IMG/VR virus record: IMGVR_UViG_3300020159_001341
Location: 1 to 36,876 of that record
Source of the DNA: a virus
Reading direction: 5' to 3' (one strand)
DNA: 36,876 nucleotides
Shown here: positions 4,616 through 22,519 of the stretch, piece after piece
Position numbering within the stretch: the stretch's first letter is position 1
Layout of the letters: each line of letters opens with the position of its first letter
Position numbers and translations under genes: made by a program
Notes under the pieces: generated by a model
What the model was told of the DNA's origin: nothing
Databases searched by the model: none
Seen by the model: only the letters and a program-made list of their open reading frames with translations

Positions 4616-7327
4616 ATGGCACCGCCAAATGAACCAAACATAGCAGGAAATGGCGCTACCCCTACCCCAATCACTGGCGGAGGAAGTCGTCTTGCAAAGA
4701 TGACACGGGAGGCAACTTCATTGTCGGTTGCTCTTGCTGGTGTTGCTAGATCATTAGATGCCATTACTGCCAAAGGAACTAAAGCCGCCGCCGCTCTAAA
4801 AGGTCTTAATGTTGGCGCTACTGGGGGTGTCACCACTGGTGTTGCTCAGGGTAACCAAGGTCACCCAGTATTGGTTAATAGTGGTCCAGCATCCACCACT
4901 AGTAGTAACACTAATTACAGGCTTGATCCAGCCGCAAGTGGTGGTGGTAGTCGTCGCATGTCTGCGATGGAGGTAATGCAACAAAGTCGTGGTGGAGCAT
5001 TCACGAGTGCGGCAATGGCTATTGGTAATGTGGTTGGTGCTGGTGTTGCGGCAATGGATTCGCGTATTGCGCGAGGTTATGAATATTCATCATCAGCCGA
5101 CAAGATGTCAGTTATGTATCAACAAATTACTGGTCTCAGTAATGCTGGTGTCCGTAATGCTTACCGCCAACCATTAACTAACTACCGCCTCGGTACTAAC
5201 GGTATTAATGCCCTAATGGCAATGCAGGCATCTACTGGTATTAGTGCTCTTGGTAATGCATCCACTGTTGAGGGATTAAATGCTCTATCGGGATACAGCC
5301 TCGGTGCTGAGGGTGTTACTAATATGCTTACTAGTTTAGGTAGCGCCCAAACTACTAACCGCATGTTCATGATGACTGGTCAAAGTCTATATATGCCTGG
5401 GGGTGGTCAGCGTAGTGGTACTGAAGTTATCCAAAACCTAGCGCGAGCATCAGGTTTAACTAATCTCAGAAACCCTGGCGGTGCCTTACAGCAAGGTAGT
5501 AATACGCGTTCCCTCTTAGCAGATATGGGTGTTGACTCTGCCACTCAAGACATAGTTATCCGATATGCAATGGCAAACCAACAGTATGGTGCTAAGGGTG
5601 GCAAGGGTATGTATGACCCTTCTAGCAAGTCTCAGAGGGAGTTTGTCGGTATTGAAGACAACTTCGCTACACAGATTGAAGAAACCACGCGCGTCAAAAC
5701 TGGGCGCGAAGAAGACTTCTATGGTCGTCAACAGGACAACTTTGCCAAACTTGAAAGGACAACTCAAAGCCTTGAACAGGCATTTGGGAGACTTGAGGAT
5801 AGGCTTTCAGGAATTGTTGGTAAGGCTATTGAAACCAAGCCTCAGCGAAAGGCGACTGGTGGTATACTTAAGGCATTAGGTCCAGCCGCAATGATGGCTG
5901 GTGCGGCTATTTCTACCACTGGTGTTGGTGCCGCTGTTGGTGTGCCATTAATGATACTTGGTGGTCTTGCAACTGCATTCGGTGGTGCTATGGATGCTCC
6001 TCCTGCTGGTGACCCAGGTCCTGGTCGTAATCTACCCTCAATGGGTAAAACTGGTGATCCAAATACATCGGGTGGTTCAGGGAAAATGCACCCCACCATG
6101 CAACAGCGTGTGGATCAACTAATTGCCGCATCTGGTGGCAAAGTTGGATTGGGTACAGGTTACCGTAGTAAGGCTGAACAAGAAACTATGTTCCGCTCGC
6201 GTTATCGTAAGACCTCTAGCCCTGTGGATGCTGAAGGTAAAAAGAACTGGGAATGGGATGGCTCTTACTGGGAGCATGTGAGTGGCGCTCAAGCCGCTCC
6301 CCCTGGTCGCTCAATGCATGAAATTGGTCTTGCGGCTGACTTAACTGGTGACATGAGTTGGGTTACCGCTAATGCCGCCCGCTTTGGTTTGAAGCACTTT
6401 GAAAGTATGGGGGAGCCTTGGCATGTCCAGCCATCGGAACTTCCTAATGGTCGTACTGAATACGAAAAGCAGGGCCGCCCATGGGGTGGTGAGCCAATGT
6501 CATCAGGAGGTGTCTCATCTGGAAGAACTGAACACACTGATGGTGCTTACGGAGGTGGTGGTACAACTAACGCAGGCGTAACTACTGCATCTTTTGCGGG
6601 TATGAGTATGGCTGATGCTATCTCTGCGTTCCGAGCAAGTGGATTTCTTGGTTCTACTGGTTTAAGTGGTGGGAGTGGGAAAGGTAGCCCACGGCGCCGA
6701 GGTGGTGTTGGTACATCCACTATGCCTACTAAGTCTGGTGGTCAACTAACTGGTGAGGATGTAGCACGATATGCATACAACGCTGGTTTCCGTGGTGAAA
6801 ACTTAGTTAAAGCAGTGGCTATTGCTTACCGTGAGAGTAGGTGGAATGCAGGGTCATATAACCCTAATGCTTCTACTAAGGACCTTTCGTATGGTCTTAT
6901 GCAGATCAACATGATCGGCGCTCTTGGACCATCACGCCTTAAGCAATTTGGTCTTTCTAGTAATGAAGAATTATATGACCCAGCGATAAACATGAAAGCC
7001 GCCTTCCAAATGTCTGGCGGTAAAGACTTCTATGCATGGGGTCCATATAAGGGTAAAGACCCGTTATATAGCACTAACCCTGAGGCGGCTCGTCAAGCAG
7101 TAGCAAATGCAGGATTCAACACAGAAGGTGATCCTGATATCCGTGCGTCAGCGCGAGGTAGTGGTATGAGTGTTTCTACATTAACAACTGGTGCAACTTT
7201 TAATATTGCCCCAGTTATTAATGTAAACGGAAGTGGTAATCCGCAGGCTGACGCACAGATTATTGCTCGTGAGGTAACAATGATTATTGAGCGCGAAATG
7301 CGATTAAGGAATATGAGGAACGCATAA
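4616..7327 (+). CDS. tape measure protein with M15 peptidase and lytic transglycosylase domains
   Basis: A 903-residue protein in the tape measure position, with a GGAGGG ribosome binding site. Residues 1-400 are Gly/Ala/Ser-rich helical sequence. A hydrophobic Gly/Ala segment lies near 415-460. A VanY-like M15 D,D-peptidase domain follows (about 495-610), with GYRS, the zinc motif SMHEIGLAAD (His568, Asp575) and EPWH (Glu600, His603). A lysozyme-like SLT domain (about 715-840) carries the catalytic Glu in YRESRW (Glu740) and GLMQIN. The protein would set tail length and open peptidoglycan on entry by cutting both peptide and glycan. All catalytic residues are visible. The stop overlaps the next start (TAATG). 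Confidence 0.88.
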   Translation: MAPPNEPNIAGNGATPTPITGGGSRLAKMTREATSLSVALAGVARSLDAITAKGTKAAAALKGLNVGATGGVTTGVAQGNQGHPVLVNSGPASTTSSNTNYRLDPAASGGGSRRMSAMEVMQQSRGGAFTSAAMAIGNVVGAGVAAMDSRIARGYEYSSSADKMSVMYQQITGLSNAGVRNAYRQPLTNYRLGTNGINALMAMQASTGISALGNASTVEGLNALSGYSLGAEGVTNMLTSLGSAQTTNRMFMMTGQSLYMPGGGQRSGTEVIQNLARASGLTNLRNPGGALQQGSNTRSLLADMGVDSATQDIVIRYAMANQQYGAKGGKGMYDPSSKSQREFVGIEDNFATQIEETTRVKTGREEDFYGRQQDNFAKLERTTQSLEQAFGRLEDRLSGIVGKAIETKPQRKATGGILKALGPAAMMAGAAISTTGVGAAVGVPLMILGGLATAFGGAMDAPPAGDPGPGRNLPSMGKTGDPNTSGGSGKMHPTMQQRVDQLIAASGGKVGLGTGYRSKAEQETMFRSRYRKTSSPVDAEGKKNWEWDGSYWEHVSGAQAAPPGRSMHEIGLAADLTGDMSWVTANAARFGLKHFESMGEPWHVQPSELPNGRTEYEKQGRPWGGEPMSSGGVSSGRTEHTDGAYGGGGTTNAGVTTASFAGMSMADAISAFRASGFLGSTGLSGGSGKGSPRRRGGVGTSTMPTKSGGQLTGEDVARYAYNAGFRGENLVKAVAIAYRESRWNAGSYNPNASTKDLSYGLMQINMIGALGPSRLKQFGLSSNEELYDPAINMKAAFQMSGGKDFYAWGPYKGKDPLYSTNPEAARQAVANAGFNTEGDPDIRASARGSGMSVSTLTTGATFNIAPVINVNGSGNPQADAQIIAREVTMIIEREMRLRNMRNA

Positions 7328-16085: not shown

Positions 16086-16718
16086 CTACTTCTTTTTAAC
16101 TTCGTATTCGTAGCGGTTATCATCAGAAGTTACCCACTTGTGAGCATCTTCGGTATCCCATTTTCTTGTATTCACAAGACGCTCAATAAGGGTGCCAGTT
16201 TTAGTGGTAAATGACGGGTCAAACAAACGCACTCTGTTGTTTGGTTGGATTGCAAAGTTACCGTCATCTCTTTCAATGACATGACCACATTTGTGCTGAC
16301 CAGGATTCAAAGAAAAACCACCGTTAAGCACATTGTCGTCTGGAGAGTGCCAATCAAGCGTGAACAGGTATTTGCCGTTGACAAATTCTCCTGAACGGGC
16401 AACATAGGTCATACGCATATTTCGCATAGCCTGAAATTCAGTGACAGCAATGTTTGCCGAAAAAGAGTTCCAAAGTACAAGTTCGTGAATATCAACCTCA
16501 GGAGAATCTTCACGAGAACAAAAGGCTGAAATCGGCATACGCCACCACACGCCACCATCTTCCATAAGAAAATGAAACAGTGGGCTTCTTCCTTGTATTG
16601 AAGTTACCCCAAAGATCATGCATGGAAACTTGAGATCATGGCTATCACGCTGATCGCGCAAATAGTTACCACGGACAAAACATTCAATAACAGGAATGTT
16701 TGCATTTAATTCGGGCAC
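16086..16718 (-). CDS. 210-aa unknown protein, last gene of the minus-strand operon
   Basis: Starts at GTG 16718, overlapping the preceding stop codon by one base (TAGTG). The sequence is soluble with many aromatic residues: LFHFLMEDGGVWWRMPISAF (about residues 47-66), GKYLFTLDWHSPDDN (about 115-129), and a basic end. The late RMPISAF and YLFTLDW blocks feel like those of a hypothetical protein recurrent in environmental T4-like phages, but I cannot name a family. No catalytic motif is evident. It shares an operon with Dps and three small basic proteins. Confidence 0.7.
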   Translation of the reverse strand: MPELNANIPVIECFVRGNYLRDQRDSHDLKFPCMIFGVTSIQGRSPLFHFLMEDGGVWWRMPISAFCSREDSPEVDIHELVLWNSFSANIAVTEFQAMRNMRMTYVARSGEFVNGKYLFTLDWHSPDDNVLNGGFSLNPGQHKCGHVIERDDGNFAIQPNNRVRLFDPSFTTKTGTLIERLVNTRKWDTEDAHKWVTSDDNRYEYEVKKK

Positions 16719-17451: not shown

Positions 17452-17895
17452 TCACTTAACCGATGCTCGTAGTTGCCATGACCATTTCATTTGACTGTCA
17501 ACCCTCTCAGACAAGAAGTTTGCAATACCCTGCTGGTCGGCTTTGGTTGCTTCTTTGAATGAGGTATTTAACTGAGTGATCAGCGCCTCGTTAGCCTTCA
17601 ACAATGCCGTTGACATTGCCTTCGGATTCGGGCTTACTTCTTTAACTTCAATCGTACGAAGATCAATAAACTTCTGAAGATTGAACGGGGCGTAGTCATC
17701 TAACTTGCGAATGTTCTCAGCCACTGGGTCAATCATCGCATATACATCTTCATAGATTTCTGCGAAGAGACCGTGGTACTGACTGAAGTCAGAACCCTCA
17801 ACATTCCAGTGAAATCCGTGCGCCATGAAGTAAAAGGTGACGGTGTCAGATAGCAGGGTTTTGAGGGATTTGGTAAGGGCTGGGGCTGTCGCCAT
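17452..17895 (-). CDS. dps: Dps-like ferritin (DNA protection during starvation)
   Basis: A 147-residue protein with the Dps signature HWNVEG (residues 29-34). The inter-subunit ferroxidase ligands are all present: His29, His41, Asp56 and Glu60, with the 12/15/4 spacing of E. coli His51, His63, Asp78, Glu82. Dps dodecamers oxidise Fe(II) with peroxide and store iron; some also bind DNA. This one lacks a long basic N-terminal tail (it begins MATAPALTKSLK), so DNA binding is uncertain. AAGGAG precedes ATG 17895. It heads a five-gene minus-strand operon with three Lys-rich proteins and is divergently transcribed from the initiator gene. Confidence 0.9.
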   Translation of the reverse strand: MATAPALTKSLKTLLSDTVTFYFMAHGFHWNVEGSDFSQYHGLFAEIYEDVYAMIDPVAENIRKLDDYAPFNLQKFIDLRTIEVKEVSPNPKAMSTALLKANEALITQLNTSFKEATKADQQGIANFLSERVDSQMKWSWQLRASVK

Positions 17896-18102: not shown

Positions 18103-19353
18103 ATGTCTAGAAAACTTAACGGACCGTTTGCCGCAGTCCCAATATGGGCGATTGATTTGATCACCAAAAAGGGCAATCCGACCCACTCCCATATCCTCAT
18201 GTGCATCATCCGCTTGACACCATTTGACGGCAATCCGATCATGACAATTGACGACATCTCGGGAATATCAGGGATGTCTCCTTCTACAGTTAAACGATCA
18301 ATTAAGTGGTTAGAGTTACACAAAGTAGTAACATCAACCATACTCTCAGCGAACCGCGGGAAGAGCATAATTGTCAATTACCGCAAGCCCAAAGGGGGGT
18401 TCACCAGTGACCTAGCCCTACGCAAAGGTGGGGTCACCAGTGACCTGCCTACCCCCAAAGGGGGGGTCACCCATGACCTACCAGGGGGGTCACCCATGAA
18501 CCCCCCACGAGGCTGTGAGCAGGGGGAACGCGTCTCTATAGATAGTACTTTAGATATAGTACAAAGGAAAATGTCTAACGACATTTTCCTTTGTGGGCTT
18601 CGCCCGAAAAAACAACAAGGAGAACCTATGCCCACTTTTGGTGCTGACCCCGACAACGACCGACCATGGGATGAGACCATCGCCCTGAAGAAAACCACCA
18701 GCGAAGTCTCACAAGTACTAGACCATTTTGAACTCACCGCCCGCAGGGTTGGTGGAAAGACAACCCCTACGGGTGAGCGCCCAGCGTTCCGCGCTCAGAT
18801 CAAGCGCTTAATCAACGCTGGGGTCAAGGTCCCTGACCTGACCAAGATGACCGAGGAATTCTTTGCCCTATCGCGGAACATTGAATCACCAGCGCCATGG
18901 CGAGTCTTTTGTTCCCGAGAAGTCCAAACAGGCATGATGTCCAAAATGACGGGGGTCTCGCAGAACTCCCCGATACTGGGGTGGGTATCCGATGATTTTC
19001 AACATGGTTCCGATCTCCCATGGGACGAAGACATTAATCAAAAAATGCAAAAGATCATTTGGAGGCGCGGGATGGATGTCGCCTATAGGTACCCCGAGTT
19101 GCTGGTGGGTATCGCAGAAGTGGCATTTGAAGACATCTCGTTTTTTGATACCTTGATCCAGTCAGCATCATTCCTCATCACGAATTGCACGACAATGTTT
19201 GACAACGACCTGGCTCCTGTGCGTAGTATCTTGACCGACGCAGGGATTGCCATCCCCGAAGATATTCTTGCCCGCAAGAACTTGCGTGAGTTAGCACCAT
19301 CACTCAAGCAAGCCGTAGTTAATTACCAACTCACAAGGAGAACCACAACATGA
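18103..19353 (+). CDS. helix-turn-helix replication initiator with embedded origin
   Basis: A 416-residue protein. Start 18103 is chosen (ACGAGGAG 5 bases upstream) although the frame is open to 17896, because upstream residues look non-coding and the leader holds the divergent promoter. Residues 45-80 form a winged-helix HTH (TIDDISGISGMSPSTVKRSI). Residues 97-135 are a KGG-x-T-x-D-L repeat encoded by an iteron-like DNA array. The C-terminal part (residues 176-416) is helical and likely contacts the loader or helicase. It is followed directly by a DnaC-like loader and a DnaB-like helicase, as lambda O is followed by P. A strong internal start at 18628 may give a second, shorter product. Confidence 0.72.
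   Translation: MSRKLNGPFAAVPIWAIDLITKKGNPTHSHILMCIIRLTPFDGNPIMTIDDISGISGMSPSTVKRSIKWLELHKVVTSTILSANRGKSIIVNYRKPKGGFTSDLALRKGGVTSDLPTPKGGVTHDLPGGSPMNPPRGCEQGERVSIDSTLDIVQRKMSNDIFLCGLRPKKQQGEPMPTFGADPDNDRPWDETIALKKTTSEVSQVLDHFELTARRVGGKTTPTGERPAFRAQIKRLINAGVKVPDLTKMTEEFFALSRNIESPAPWRVFCSREVQTGMMSKMTGVSQNSPILGWVSDDFQHGSDLPWDEDINQKMQKIIWRRGMDVAYRYPELLVGIAEVAFEDISFFDTLIQSASFLITNCTTMFDNDLAPVRSILTDAGIAIPEDILARKNLRELAPSLKQAVVNYQLTRRTTT
18391..18502 (+). repeat. four iteron-like repeats inside the initiator gene (candidate origin)
   Basis: Four copies of a core GGGTCACC-A/C-A/G-TGACC are seen at 18398-18413, 18431-18446, 18464-18479 and 18487-18502. Copies 1-3 start exactly 33 bp apart and share a preceding AAAGG(G/T)GGGG. 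Copy 4 follows after 23 bp, so it is in a different codon phase, which argues that the DNA and not the peptide is conserved. Each core is itself a near palindrome (GGTCAC-CA-GTGACC in copy 2). An AT-rich stretch follows at about 18535-18580, as in the lambda origin. Confidence 0.75.
18561..18605 (+). promoter_or_regulatory. perfect 15-bp hairpin plus small TTCG-type hairpin upstream of an internal start
   Basis: ACAAAGGAAAATGTC (18561-18575) and GACATTTTCCTTTGT (18580-18594) pair without mismatch around the loop TAAC. GGGC-TTC-GCCC (18595-18605) follows immediately, then an A-rich stretch and the ribosome binding site for ATG 18628. It is inside an open frame and has no T-run, so it is not an intrinsic terminator. 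It could be part of an origin, a primer-start structure, or an RNA element controlling the internal translation start. Confidence 0.8.
18628..19353 (+). CDS. possible nested in-frame gene: C-terminal 241 residues of the initiator
   Basis: AAGGAGA (18617-18623) sits 4-5 bases before ATG 18628, in frame with the initiator, at codon 176. This signal is as strong as any start in the window. The segment before it (hairpin and repeat region) reads as a poor linker, and the segment after it is ordinary globular protein (MPTFGADPDNDRPWDETIAL at the start). The likely result is two products, a full-length DNA-binding initiator and a short form lacking the HTH, similar in principle to nested phage genes. 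Expression of the short form is inferred. Confidence 0.5.
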   Translation: MPTFGADPDNDRPWDETIALKKTTSEVSQVLDHFELTARRVGGKTTPTGERPAFRAQIKRLINAGVKVPDLTKMTEEFFALSRNIESPAPWRVFCSREVQTGMMSKMTGVSQNSPILGWVSDDFQHGSDLPWDEDINQKMQKIIWRRGMDVAYRYPELLVGIAEVAFEDISFFDTLIQSASFLITNCTTMFDNDLAPVRSILTDAGIAIPEDILARKNLRELAPSLKQAVVNYQLTRRTTT

Positions 19354-19943
19354 CCTCAGCACCGCCGACCGAATGGAAATCAGCACGATGGTGGCAGAAC
19401 CGACCCCTTGAGGAGCGTCTTGCATGGGCCAATTTCCCACCGCGTTGGAAAGACGCCCAGTACGAAGAATCTATGATCTCAGACAAGACCTTTAACGCCA
19501 TTGCTAAGTTCATCAGCGGTGAGTCCAACGGTTTGTTTTTGCATGGACCAAGCGGTGCTGGCAAGACCCCAATCGCAGTATCTATCTTGCGTGACATCCT
19601 CACAAACAAATCTGCTTCAGGTCGGTTCATTACGGCAGATCGCTATGTTGAGATGCTCAAGGACCAGTTTGACAACGATAACGAACTTCCCGAGATGTAC
19701 TCCATGCCACACATCGTCAAGTACCTCAAGGGTGTTTTTGACATTGTCGTGCTTGATGCAGTTGGGGATGAACGATCAACTGAATTCTCACAACATGAAA
19801 TCGGGAGTTTATTGCGCCGACGCAATGAGGACCTTCGTAAAACAATCATTACAACATGCCTGTCTCCAACCGAGTTTGTTCGGCGCTACGGTGATCGTGT
19901 TGCGACTGTTCTAGAGGACATGACGATCAGCACGGTGTCCTGA
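19350..19943 (+). CDS. DnaC-like helicase loader ATPase
   Basis: A 197-residue AAA+ protein, coupled by ATGA to the initiator gene. Walker A is FLHGPSGAGKTPIAVSI (about residues 58-74), with Pro after the Thr; a Walker B-like strand is DIVVLDAVGDE (about 129-139); a sensor-like segment KTIITTCLSPTEFVRRYGDR follows (about 169-188). The layout matches the DnaC/IstB family, which delivers DnaB helicase to single-stranded origin DNA. The standard VIDELG-like Walker B motif is changed to VLDAVGDE, but acidic residues remain. The position between initiator and helicase supports the role strongly. Confidence 0.85.
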   Translation: MTSAPPTEWKSARWWQNRPLEERLAWANFPPRWKDAQYEESMISDKTFNAIAKFISGESNGLFLHGPSGAGKTPIAVSILRDILTNKSASGRFITADRYVEMLKDQFDNDNELPEMYSMPHIVKYLKGVFDIVVLDAVGDERSTEFSQHEIGSLLRRRNEDLRKTIITTCLSPTEFVRRYGDRVATVLEDMTISTVS

Positions 19944-20377
19944 TGCAGGGCAATGACTTAGCCCCATACGCACCAATCCAGCAAGCAGTTTTGTTTGAGG
20001 GAGTCTTAGCAAGTTATCCAAAAGGCGCAAAGTCAGTACGCAATTGGTTTGCATCAAAAGCCAAAGACATGCCCACACTGGTTAACACTATGAAGCCAAA
20101 CGAACTACCACTGAAGTCTCTAATTGATTCAGTGAACCGCCGTGGTATCGGTACATTGATTTACACGCTCATGCCAGTTGAGGCAGTTCCCGAAATTGAG
20201 CATTGGTTAATCCGCAAAGGTGTTTCTACTTCGGTAGAGGCTTACCCTGACATTGAAACTTTGGCAGAAGACCTACGCTTCAACAGAAGTATTCATGTTA
20301 TTTATGTTGCCACCCAAGAACAGCAAGCAATCATTGGGATACGCGCTACAGTGCTTGGTTCTGAAAGAGCGTGGTAA
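19943..20377 (+). CDS. 144-aa unknown protein in the replisome cluster
   Basis: Starts within the previous stop (TGATG). No known motif is evident. The second half (IGTLIYTLMPVEAVPEIEHW, then STSVEAYPDIETLAEDLRF, IHVIYVATQEQQAIIGIRA) has the alternating strand-helix order of a small alpha/beta fold and superficially recalls HAD-like scaffolds, but the nucleophile Asp motif is not visible. It lies between the loader and helicase genes, so a replication accessory role is likely. Function unknown. Confidence 0.65.
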   Translation: MQGNDLAPYAPIQQAVLFEGVLASYPKGAKSVRNWFASKAKDMPTLVNTMKPNELPLKSLIDSVNRRGIGTLIYTLMPVEAVPEIEHWLIRKGVSTSVEAYPDIETLAEDLRFNRSIHVIYVATQEQQAIIGIRATVLGSERAW

Positions 20378-20379
20378 TC

Positions 20380-21633
20380 ATGTCGTCACCCGAACATCTC
20401 CTAGTTTCAAAAATCATCCAAACTGCCGACATTGCGACGCCGTTAAAATCCGGAGTTAAAGAAGAACACTTCTCAGATACATGGCAAGGTGTATGGCATT
20501 GGCTTACGGGCTTTTACCGAGAGCACAACGCCGTACCGACAGCGCGTGTATTCAAGTCACAATACGCCGACATCCAGTTGTACGACGCCGAGGCTGAAAC
20601 ATTCTCACGACTCATTGAGGAAATCTTTCAGGCGCATACCCAGCACCGTTTGATTGAGGTCATCTCAACAACAATGCCATTGCTGAATGTTGGTCGCACC
20701 AAGGATGCCCTAGACACACTGACGGTTGGTATTCAAACAGCCGCGGTTGAGGTGTCCCGTATGCGGGACATTGACATCATTCAAAACTGGGAAACGCGCG
20801 TTATGCGCTACGAAGAAATGCGTAGCACACCAAACTCCCTACGCGGTATCCCAACAGGGTTCTTTGGTCTAGACAGGATTACTTCAGGTCTCAGACCGCA
20901 ACAGTTCGTTGTGTTCGTAGGTGAGCCAAAGCGTGGTAAGTCTTTGTTTGCTCTTATCATTGCTAACTCTTGTCACATCCATGGCAAGATTCCCATGTTC
21001 GTTTCGTTTGAAATGAGCATTGAGGAACAAGAAGCGCGTTACGACGCAATCATCTCCAAGACCCCATTCAATAAGATTCTTCGTGGTGAGTTAGACAACA
21101 AAGAAATGGAACGCATTCGTCGCTCCCTCATGCAACGCAAGAACATGCAACCGTTTATCTTCAGTGAAGACACCTCGTCACTTACGACCATCTCAGCCCT
21201 TACGGGTAAGGTCAAGGAATACTCACCTGACTTATTAATCGTTGACGGTGTGTATCTCATGGACGATGAGGAAGGCGAAGCCAAGGGAAGCCCTCAGGCA
21301 CTCACTAACATCACCCGTGGTCTAAAGCGTATGTCTCAGAAACTTGACATCCCTGTCGTGGCAACGACGCAGGCTCTTGGTTGGAAACTTGGCAACAAGA
21401 AGACGCGAGCAATTACTACCGACGCAATTGGTTACTCATCATCGTTCGTGCAAGACGCAGACTTAGTGCTCGGCGTTGAGCGCAACCCCGACCTAGATGA
21501 CCAAGCAATCATTCGCGTTGTCGCGGCTCGTTCAGCACCGACAGGTGAAGTACATATCAAGTGGGATTGGGAAAACATGGACTTCTCGGAGGTGACTGCG
21601 GATGGCTATGGTGTCGGAGACGCATTTGACTGA
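20380..21633 (+). CDS. dnaB: DnaB-like replicative helicase
   Basis: ATG 20380 is taken (2 bases after the previous stop); GTG 20371 would add three residues. The N-terminal domain (about 1-110) is helical, as in DnaB. The RecA-like ATPase domain begins with RGIPTGFFGLDRITSGL (about 152-168), Walker A VGEPKRGKS (about 183-191), the FVSFEMS segment (about 210-216), Walker B LLIVDGVYLM (about 284-293), and TTQALGW (about 328-334) with the later VVAARSAPTGE arginine-finger region. It moves 5' to 3' on the lagging strand. The 417 residues are normal for the family. It overlaps the primase gene by 32 bases. Confidence 0.92.
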   Translation: MSSPEHLLVSKIIQTADIATPLKSGVKEEHFSDTWQGVWHWLTGFYREHNAVPTARVFKSQYADIQLYDAEAETFSRLIEEIFQAHTQHRLIEVISTTMPLLNVGRTKDALDTLTVGIQTAAVEVSRMRDIDIIQNWETRVMRYEEMRSTPNSLRGIPTGFFGLDRITSGLRPQQFVVFVGEPKRGKSLFALIIANSCHIHGKIPMFVSFEMSIEEQEARYDAIISKTPFNKILRGELDNKEMERIRRSLMQRKNMQPFIFSEDTSSLTTISALTGKVKEYSPDLLIVDGVYLMDDEEGEAKGSPQALTNITRGLKRMSQKLDIPVVATTQALGWKLGNKKTRAITTDAIGYSSSFVQDADLVLGVERNPDLDDQAIIRVVAARSAPTGEVHIKWDWENMDFSEVTADGYGVGDAFD

Positions 21634-22519
21634 TCTTGGGAATGTTCTCAAGTCACTCGGCGTAGACATTCGCCGTGCCGAGGGCAAGGAAATCTCAGGA
21701 CGCTGTCCCGTACATAAGCGTGTGACGGGACGCGATGATGGTTCCCCATCATGGAGCATGAGCGCCGAGACTGGTCTATGGATTTGTTTCTCATGTGGTG
21801 CCCGCGGGACACTGAGCATGTTGGTCTCAGAATTGACTGGCGAACCAGACGCAATTATGGCTGTCCATCACTTTTTGATTGACCGCAACTTAGAAAGACT
21901 TACTTCTGAGGTAGAAGTAGTTAAAAAGAAACCCGAAGTTGATTGGATTTCATTTTCAAAGTTTGGTGCAGCGCCCGAAACAGAACTTAAGAAACGAGCG
22001 ATTGATCCTGACCAAGCCCGAATGTATGGTATCCGATGGGATACGGAGCGAGCCGCTTGGATTATCCCCATCGTTAACCAGTTTGGTGATCTTCAGGGGT
22101 GGCAGACCAAGGCTCGTGACTGGGTACGCAACTTCCCAGTAGGTGTTAAGAAGTCGGAAAGCCTCTTTGGAATTGAGCGCTTTAAGGGTGGCACAGCAAT
22201 CTTGGTGGAATCACCACTTGATGTTGTACGCTTCGCCAGCGTCTTTGACAAGCCACAGGCGTTAGCCACTTTCGGAGCGGCTGTTAGCGCCAAGCAAATT
22301 GGACTCCTAGCATCGGTTGCCGACAAGGTGATCATTGCAATGGATAATGATGATGCTGGAAAGCAATCTTCTAAGAAGTTCTTTAAAGCCTTGCCTTACT
22401 TCCGCAAAGGTGTATGGTGGTGGGATTATTCAGGTACTACCGCCAAAGACATTGGCGACATGACCAATAATGAGATAGAACTTGGATTAATAAACTCAAC
22501 GCAAATGCCAAATTGGTAA
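21602..22519 (+). CDS. DnaG-type primase, short
   Basis: A 305-residue protein. The zinc domain has GRCPVHKR...WICFSCGARG (Cys, His, Cys, Cys; about residues 32-63). The Toprim domain has AILVESPLDVVR (about 199-210) and IIAMDNDDAGKQ (about 241-252), which carry the conserved Glu and the DxD pair. It is about half the length of bacterial DnaG and lacks an obvious helicase-binding C-terminal domain. It lays down RNA primers beside the DnaB-like helicase whose gene overlaps it. The start at 21602 gives a long overlap; ATG 21608 is also possible. Confidence 0.9.
   Translation: MAMVSETHLTDLGNVLKSLGVDIRRAEGKEISGRCPVHKRVTGRDDGSPSWSMSAETGLWICFSCGARGTLSMLVSELTGEPDAIMAVHHFLIDRNLERLTSEVEVVKKKPEVDWISFSKFGAAPETELKKRAIDPDQARMYGIRWDTERAAWIIPIVNQFGDLQGWQTKARDWVRNFPVGVKKSESLFGIERFKGGTAILVESPLDVVRFASVFDKPQALATFGAAVSAKQIGLLASVADKVIIAMDNDDAGKQSSKKFFKALPYFRKGVWWWDYSGTTAKDIGDMTNNEIELGLINSTQMPNW

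Follow-up and report, generated by a model that had tools for sequence, protein, structure and literature searches.

A probable replication origin of repeated dyads inside the initiator gene of an uncultured tailed phage and its relatives

The DNA at about 18373-18625, inside the linker-coding part of an initiator gene, is very probably the replication origin of the phage represented by IMG/VR virus record IMGVR_UViG_3300020159_001341 (positions 1 to 36,876, the whole stretch of DNA analysed, referred to here as the window). We read this as an origin of the lambda/SPP1-type intragenic kind with a dyad of its own; the plan is already known from lambda and SPP1, and the sequences here differ. 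Computation establishes that the repeats are dyads with restricted spacings, where the weakest duplex lies, how the genes are ordered and that each of 12 records has one cluster. The features of the gene that bear on the array and the tract behind it are as follows.

18103-19353, plus strand: initiator gene, 416 aa (from translation; Pfam HTH_24, E 4e-5)
About 18373-18625, plus strand: block of raised synonymous conservation, window versus five relatives (array, melting tract, hairpins, internal Shine-Dalgarno)
18399-18412, plus strand: dyad site 1, GTTCACCAGTGACC, 11 of 12 matches to GGTCACnnGTGACC
18432-18445, plus strand: dyad site 2, GGTCACCAGTGACC, 12 of 12 matches to GGTCACnnGTGACC
18465-18478, plus strand: dyad site 3, GGTCACCCATGACC, 11 of 12 matches to GGTCACnnGTGACC
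18488-18501, plus strand: dyad site 4, GGTCACCCATGAAC, 10 of 12 matches to GGTCACnnGTGACC, in the other codon phase
18537-18572, plus strand: probable DNA unwinding element, with many TAG and ATA words; no other 36 bp of the gene are less stable

The preliminary description of this DNA had reported four repeat copies within the initiator gene, three of them 33 bp apart and the fourth following after 23 bp in another reading phase. This holds: the sites occupy 18399-18501 with 10-12 of 12 matches and start spacings of 33, 33 and 23 bp, copies 1-3 share a codon phase, and copy 4, the weakest of the four, lies in a different one. Each copy is a dyad, GGTCAC-nn-GTGACC, and so more than a direct repeat. 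The window and its relatives L022 and L023 have CCCATGA in copies 3 and 4, where L014, L015, L017 and L019 (98%-identical relatives) and L024 have CCAGTGA. The array sits about 300 bp inside the gene, in DNA encoding a predicted disordered linker, and no further copy with at most one mismatch is found anywhere in the 36,876-base window. Synonymous codon shuffles within the gene gave three sites at 11/12 or better in 0 of 2000 cases and four sites at 10/12 or better in 1 of 1000.

The comparison covered 41 distinct genes (the window and 40 relatives), with protein identity down to about 25%. The relatives came from overlapping collections obtained with the initiator as query (9 loci), with the loader (31) and with an initiator alignment (58); identical copies and two re-reads were removed, four genes are partial and some differ by only a few bases. 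An extra scan with L098 found only L098, and none of 39 candidate stretches in a scan of bacterial genomes was confirmed as a relative. All 41 genes carry three or four dyads (26 with three and 15 with four; 138 sites), whose arrangements fall into eight layouts, the spacings being 22, 23, 33, 34 and 45 bp and no others, although counts of this kind are not independent trials, as the relatives share history. On a 31-row tree built without the linker and without the four partial genes, parsimony calls for 8 changes of layout. In each of 20 genes, shuffles reached the observed number of sites at 11/12 or better in 0-3 of 2000 cases; at the 10/12 limit it was reached in 0-34 of 1000, with L027 (34) and L025 and L069 (21 each) the weaker genes. 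Measured in 13 representatives, the spacings fall near multiples of 10.5-11.5 bp (R 0.93-0.96), and each of the 12 records of 72-96 kb has a single cluster of dyads and 0-2 strays. Three genes (L035, L036 and L069) have a stray 10/12 site (GTTCAT..GTGACC) at coding position 588-600, downstream in the gene. Streptomyces phage Alone3, whose DnaB is the nearest named one, has no dyad within 61845-73056.

Over 76 distinct sites the consensus is about ATRGGGTCA-N4-TGACCCYAT. The underlying tally held 144 sites in 43 entries, including L079 and L089, which are re-reads of L031 and L030 and were left out of the 41-gene count of phases and layouts; the 76 distinct sites are unaffected. The outer dyad pair at -4 covaries, being AT in 43 and GC in 16 of the 76 sites, and 0 of 5000 permutations scored as high, a rough test because the 76 sites share history. 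The pair at -3 covaries less, and those at -5 and -6 not at all.

The preliminary description had also noted an AT-rich stretch after the array. By duplex stability, calculated from nearest-neighbour energies, the 36 bp beginning at 18537, 35 bp after the array, are the weakest of the gene: none of its 1216 windows is less stable, and 0 of 500 synonymous shuffles reach this. By plain base content, however, the stretch is modest, the richest 60-base bin after the array being 58% A+T versus 50% for the gene, and the A+T content of a wider 87-base segment is not unusual, with 120 of 1000 synonymous shuffles attaining it. All 13 of 13 representatives have the weakest 36-bp duplex of their gene behind the last counted dyad, and only 0-6 of 500 shuffles are as unstable. 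The tract is also distinctive in its words. The TAA and TAG count in the surrounding 87 bases of the window was reached in 1 of 1000 shuffles, and over 13 genes ATAGTA occurs 9 times and TAG 43 times, where shuffles lead one to expect 0.4 and 12.4. Taken gene by gene, 15 of 20 have a TAA and TAG count that no more than 15 of 1000 shuffles attain; the weaker cases are L069 (27), L088 (46), L032 (52), L082 (88) and L073 (218). A DnaA-trio reading of these words was considered and not adopted because their polarity relative to the dyads is reversed. The words are enriched but run 5' to 3' away from the dyads; the B. subtilis trios, in the excerpt of the source describing them, are 3'-GAT-5', and it is the complementary strand that reads 5'-CTACTATTAC... 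away from the boxes (PMC10201434). The motif appears also in an excerpt of PMC10797057.

Cumulative GC skew has no extremum or switch at the array, either in the window or in four 92-94 kb relatives. The switch that the preliminary description had proposed to look for is thus absent; we count this against the origin reading, at low weight, since skew is a weak test in phage. The cumulative A-T skew of the window has its minimum at about 17643, near the gene-direction switch upstream of the initiator.

Replication genes follow the initiator.

19350-19943, plus strand: DnaC-like helicase loader (phrog_50, E 3.6e-24)
20371-21633, plus strand: DnaB-like replicative helicase (phrog_19, E 2.3e-55; Pfam DnaB_C, E 2.7e-33)
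21602-22519, plus strand: DNA primase (phrog_47, E 5.4e-39)

The order downstream is DnaC-like loader, a gene of unknown function, DnaB and primase, so that of the succession first proposed, initiator then loader and helicase, the loader is indeed directly next, but the helicase is the third gene after the initiator. In 30 of 31 loader-anchored loci the initiator lies directly upstream of the loader; the other, L041, starts only 168 bases before it. The nearest named DnaB proteins belong to Streptomyces phages (about 32% identity), and this hints at an actinobacterial host. Two genes upstream of the initiator are divergent, on the minus strand: a ferritin/Dps-like gene at 17452-17895 (Pfam Ferritin) and a gene of a PHROG 'ferredoxin' family at 16086-16718. 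In L030 (at 2430), L032 (2435) and L040 (2430) the initiator ATG is preceded by no Shine-Dalgarno and has the word TACAGT shortly upstream, and these starts may resemble those of leaderless mRNAs. Elsewhere in the window, the 903-aa product of 4616-7327 has VanY and SLT/lysozyme-like domains and is probably a cell-wall enzyme associated with the tail.

The AlphaFold2 model of the initiator has a mean pLDDT of 65.9, with residues 94-198 under 50, and predicts a winged helix at about residues 14-93, a disordered linker at 94-198 and a helical C-terminal domain at 199-416. The window protein matches no PHROG family at E 0.001, its best being an unnamed family at 0.0075. Seven of ten family proteins (L030, L032, L040, L042, L062, L070 and L098) match phrog_270, 'replication initiation protein', at E 0.001 or better, the best at 7.8e-12 (L040), and most of them also match families 391 or 678. 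The window protein and its nearer relatives L022 and L025 have no phrog_270 match at E 0.001, and the label 'initiator' rests therefore on distant relatives, gene order and fold. The best structural match in BFVD, A0A6J5N5Y0 (E 8e-19), is a 'helix-turn-helix domain containing protein' of an uncultured Caudovirales phage; it is 25% identical to the window protein over nearly the full length and carries no named function. BFVD gave 16 matches at E 0.001 or better, mostly unnamed phage HTH proteins, and its 'replication initiator' and 'replisome organizer' entries scored E 0.0015-0.0067. A fold search of the PDB gave none at E 0.001 or better; its top ranks are mostly winged-helix regulators from E 0.11, with TFIIB-related chains among them. 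Among named phages there was no match for the window protein or L070, and a single weak one for L040 (E 2e-3).

The DNA-binding domain of lambda O is a winged helix. The PHROG families 391 and 678, called 'O-like', are matched by lambda O as well as by the proteins studied here; with 391, lambda O and these proteins align best to separate parts of the profile, which makes 678 the better link. What lambda O and these proteins have in common through the PHROG profiles is mostly the winged helix. Against Pfam Phage_rep_O (PF04492) the window protein gave no match at E 0.001 and nine relatives none at E 0.01, with lambda O itself, the positive control, at 5.7e-36; a direct hhalign comparison of the window family with lambda O, from a shallow alignment, gave a probability of 0.2%. 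To the preliminary description the proteins had looked unrelated to those of lambda. This goes too far for the initiator: distant relatives share the O-like families with lambda O, although the direct comparison and the Phage_rep_O match fail. We therefore say that the protein would act like lambda's origin system, but do not file it under Phage_rep_O.

We infer that this protein binds the dyads, that the tract melts and that replication starts here. In the mechanism we propose, winged-helix dimers would occupy the GGGTCA-N4-TGACCC dyads, three or four in number and roughly aligned along one side of the double helix. Their binding would strain the DNA, and the adjacent tract at 18537-18572 would open. 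The C-terminal domain of the initiator would then recruit the DnaC-like loader, which would put the phage DnaB helicase on the opened strand, with phage primase and a polymerase to follow.

The dyads might instead be an operator array, through which the winged-helix protein controls transcription within its own gene, with the A+T-rich tract as an internal promoter. In sequence and in fold the winged helix is indeed matched most closely by transcription regulators, all of them weakly (best E 0.034 and 0.11, respectively), an array of dyads beside an A+T-rich tract could serve transcription too, and a promoter near the origin is also of importance in lambda, according to an excerpt of PMC3985674. 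However, the dyads are far inside the gene, the 12 records have neither a second cluster nor a site with at most one mismatch just upstream of the gene, and a promoter scan, confined to the sigma-70 consensus, finds none in the tract. With relatives that match replication-initiator families, and with a loader and helicase downstream, we consider an operator array improbable and the origin the better account.

Towards the end of the conserved block lie two hairpins and an in-frame ATG.

18561-18594, no strand assigned: perfect 15-bp hairpin with a 4-base loop (from sequence and DNA folding)
18595-18605, no strand assigned: small hairpin GGGC-TTC-GCCC, invariant in six genes
18617-18630, plus strand: candidate in-frame internal Shine-Dalgarno (AAGGAG) and ATG at 18628-18630 (from sequence)

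A 91-base segment with both hairpins folds as DNA at -19.8 kcal/mol, versus -5.9 when shuffled. In six genes of the two nearer clades every one of the 19 pairs in the two hairpins is formed (114 of 114 cells), and at two pairs in the larger stem both bases have changed in a compensatory manner; column shuffles reached the two-pair count in 44 of 500 cases and the covariation score in 3 of 500. Synonymous shuffles reached the large hairpin in 0-3 of 300 cases in 11 genes of the nearer clades. The distant clades have a short G+C-rich hairpin in the same place, which stands above synonymous shuffles in 13 of 15 genes (0-17 of 500) and does not in L070 and L073 (101 and 156 of 500); a longest-stem test did not single out this small stem in most distant-clade genes. 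The hairpin was examined as a terminator and rejected, there being no T-run after it and no hit there in a terminator scan.

The internal ATG is a possible second start, for a 241-aa C-terminal form, and is suggestive only. A Met lies a few residues before a GADPD-like motif in 13 of 13 representatives. The internal Shine-Dalgarno has a duplex energy of -8.0 kcal/mol, which 7.8% of codon positions equal; two further in-frame ATGs of the window gene (codons 132 and 324) score better, as additional in-frame ATGs do in some other genes. It is weak in L042, L062, L082 and L098, where 10-24% of codon positions are as good, and synonymous shuffles give the internal start no support in any of 20 genes taken alone (171-1414 of 2000). 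The excerpted account of plasmid pIGRK describes RepR/RepR', an initiator gene with a second in-frame start (PMC6854812), to which the candidate start read from the sequence here would be similar. It is conceivable, if doubtful, that one 250-bp stretch combines linker code, an origin and the start of a C-terminal-only protein without the DNA-binding domain, which would compete with the loader or feed it; if this is true, origin opening and initiator dosage would be coupled in one piece of DNA.

These elements could also be taken to mean that the block works as RNA, with mRNA hairpins controlling downstream translation, including that from the internal start. The 15-bp hairpin, or the small G+C-rich one of other clades, does lie just before a Shine-Dalgarno-like word and ATG in frame, and the dyads can fold as RNA too. 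But the block has no Rfam match, the internal Shine-Dalgarno is weak in several clades, and an RNA function accounts neither for the dyad spacings and the lambda-like layout nor for the place of the weakest duplex in 13 of 13 representatives. As an account of the whole block it is therefore very improbable; for the hairpin part, an RNA role may be true in addition to the origin.

Selection acts on the DNA of the dyads, the tract and the hairpin beyond the needs of the protein. In 14 gene pairs, synonymous codons for unchanged residues were kept in 192 of 204 cases at the sites and 321 of 364 in the tract that follows (here, from the sites up to the internal ATG), versus 2022 of 3457 elsewhere. 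Each of the 14 pairs has higher values at the sites and in the tract than in the remainder of the gene; the pairs were chosen, overlap in part and leave out the four partial genes. This comparison across relatives, proposed in the preliminary description, argues strongly for its suggestion of selection on the DNA. Sliding-window conservation between the window and five relatives is 0.74-0.98 at starts 18373-18589, 0.68 at 18607 and mostly 0.3-0.6 elsewhere, so that one main block is raised, with smaller rises near 18913, 19111 and the end of the gene. Those in the C-terminal part reach 0.81-0.94 at 18913-18966 and 0.72-0.74 at 19111-19164, from 17-25 codon comparisons per window.

In 41 of 41 genes the dyad DNA is translated in two codon phases, giving the peptides GVTxDP and GSxxTP; these are both of the stop-free phases, since the third would read TGA. 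The claim that the DNA core is kept despite the phase difference thus extends to relatives at about 25% identity, which retain the core while the codon phase changes. The loss of the core with retention of the peptide, which the preliminary description had set against its reading, is found at one site only, the fourth repeat of L073, where the peptide DRVVHDPI is similar and the core has decayed to GGTCGTACATGACC, below 10/12; elsewhere the three or four dyads are kept in all 41 genes. There is accordingly next to no chance that the repeats are a protein feature, with a selected GVTxDP peptide and only secondary DNA similarity: a GVTxDP-like or GSxxTP-like repeat is visible in the genes and L073 fits such a reading, but codon phase changes while the DNA stays, synonymous codons are held, the linker is predicted to be disordered, and L012 and L024 lack one whole 33-bp unit present in the window.

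The origin reading is consistent with the anatomy of lambda, whose ori/O/P layout the preliminary description had taken as a parallel. As a control, the four annotated iterons of lambda O fall in codon phases 0, 2, 2 and 1, the weakest 36 bp of the gene start 6 bp after the last iteron (none weaker among 865; 10 of 500 shuffles), and potential hairpins follow the A+T-rich tract. Both systems thus have repeats in more than one codon phase well inside the initiator gene, followed by its weakest duplex and by potential hairpins, and a loader gene directly downstream of the initiator. An excerpted account places the lambda origin in the middle of O, with each iteron an inverted repeat and O a dimer, and describes the A+T-rich tract as crucial for unwinding (PMC7466680). 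In contrast, the lambda iterons are of the ATCCCTCAAAACGAGGGA type with spacings of 20, 24 and 23, unrelated in sequence to the dyad here, as the preliminary description had said of the repeats; the loader here is DnaC-like and not P-like, and DnaB and primase are phage-encoded. In the excerpt describing SPP1, oriL lies within gene 38, with repeats inside the initiator gene and an A+T-rich unwinding element, and the phage encodes a separate loader and a DnaB-family helicase (gp38/gp39/gp40; PMC6316719). By this published description SPP1 shares with our phages the intragenic repeats, the unwinding element (a probable one here), the loader and the phage DnaB-family helicase, but it has a second origin, oriR, whereas a single cluster is seen here in each of 12 records. 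Open-access literature, the scope of our search, yielded no paper on the origin of this group among the matches listed and no wet-lab data.

Taken together, these results would extend the lambda/SPP1 plan to uncultured tailed phages, with contigs of up to 96 kb, whose proteins are barely like lambda O. The family offers a natural experiment, in that protein identity falls to about 25% and the same dyad nevertheless persists across eight layouts and both codon phases. Multi-phase dyads in the code for a disordered linker, followed by the weakest duplex of the gene, may furthermore provide a signature for finding origins in unannotated phages.
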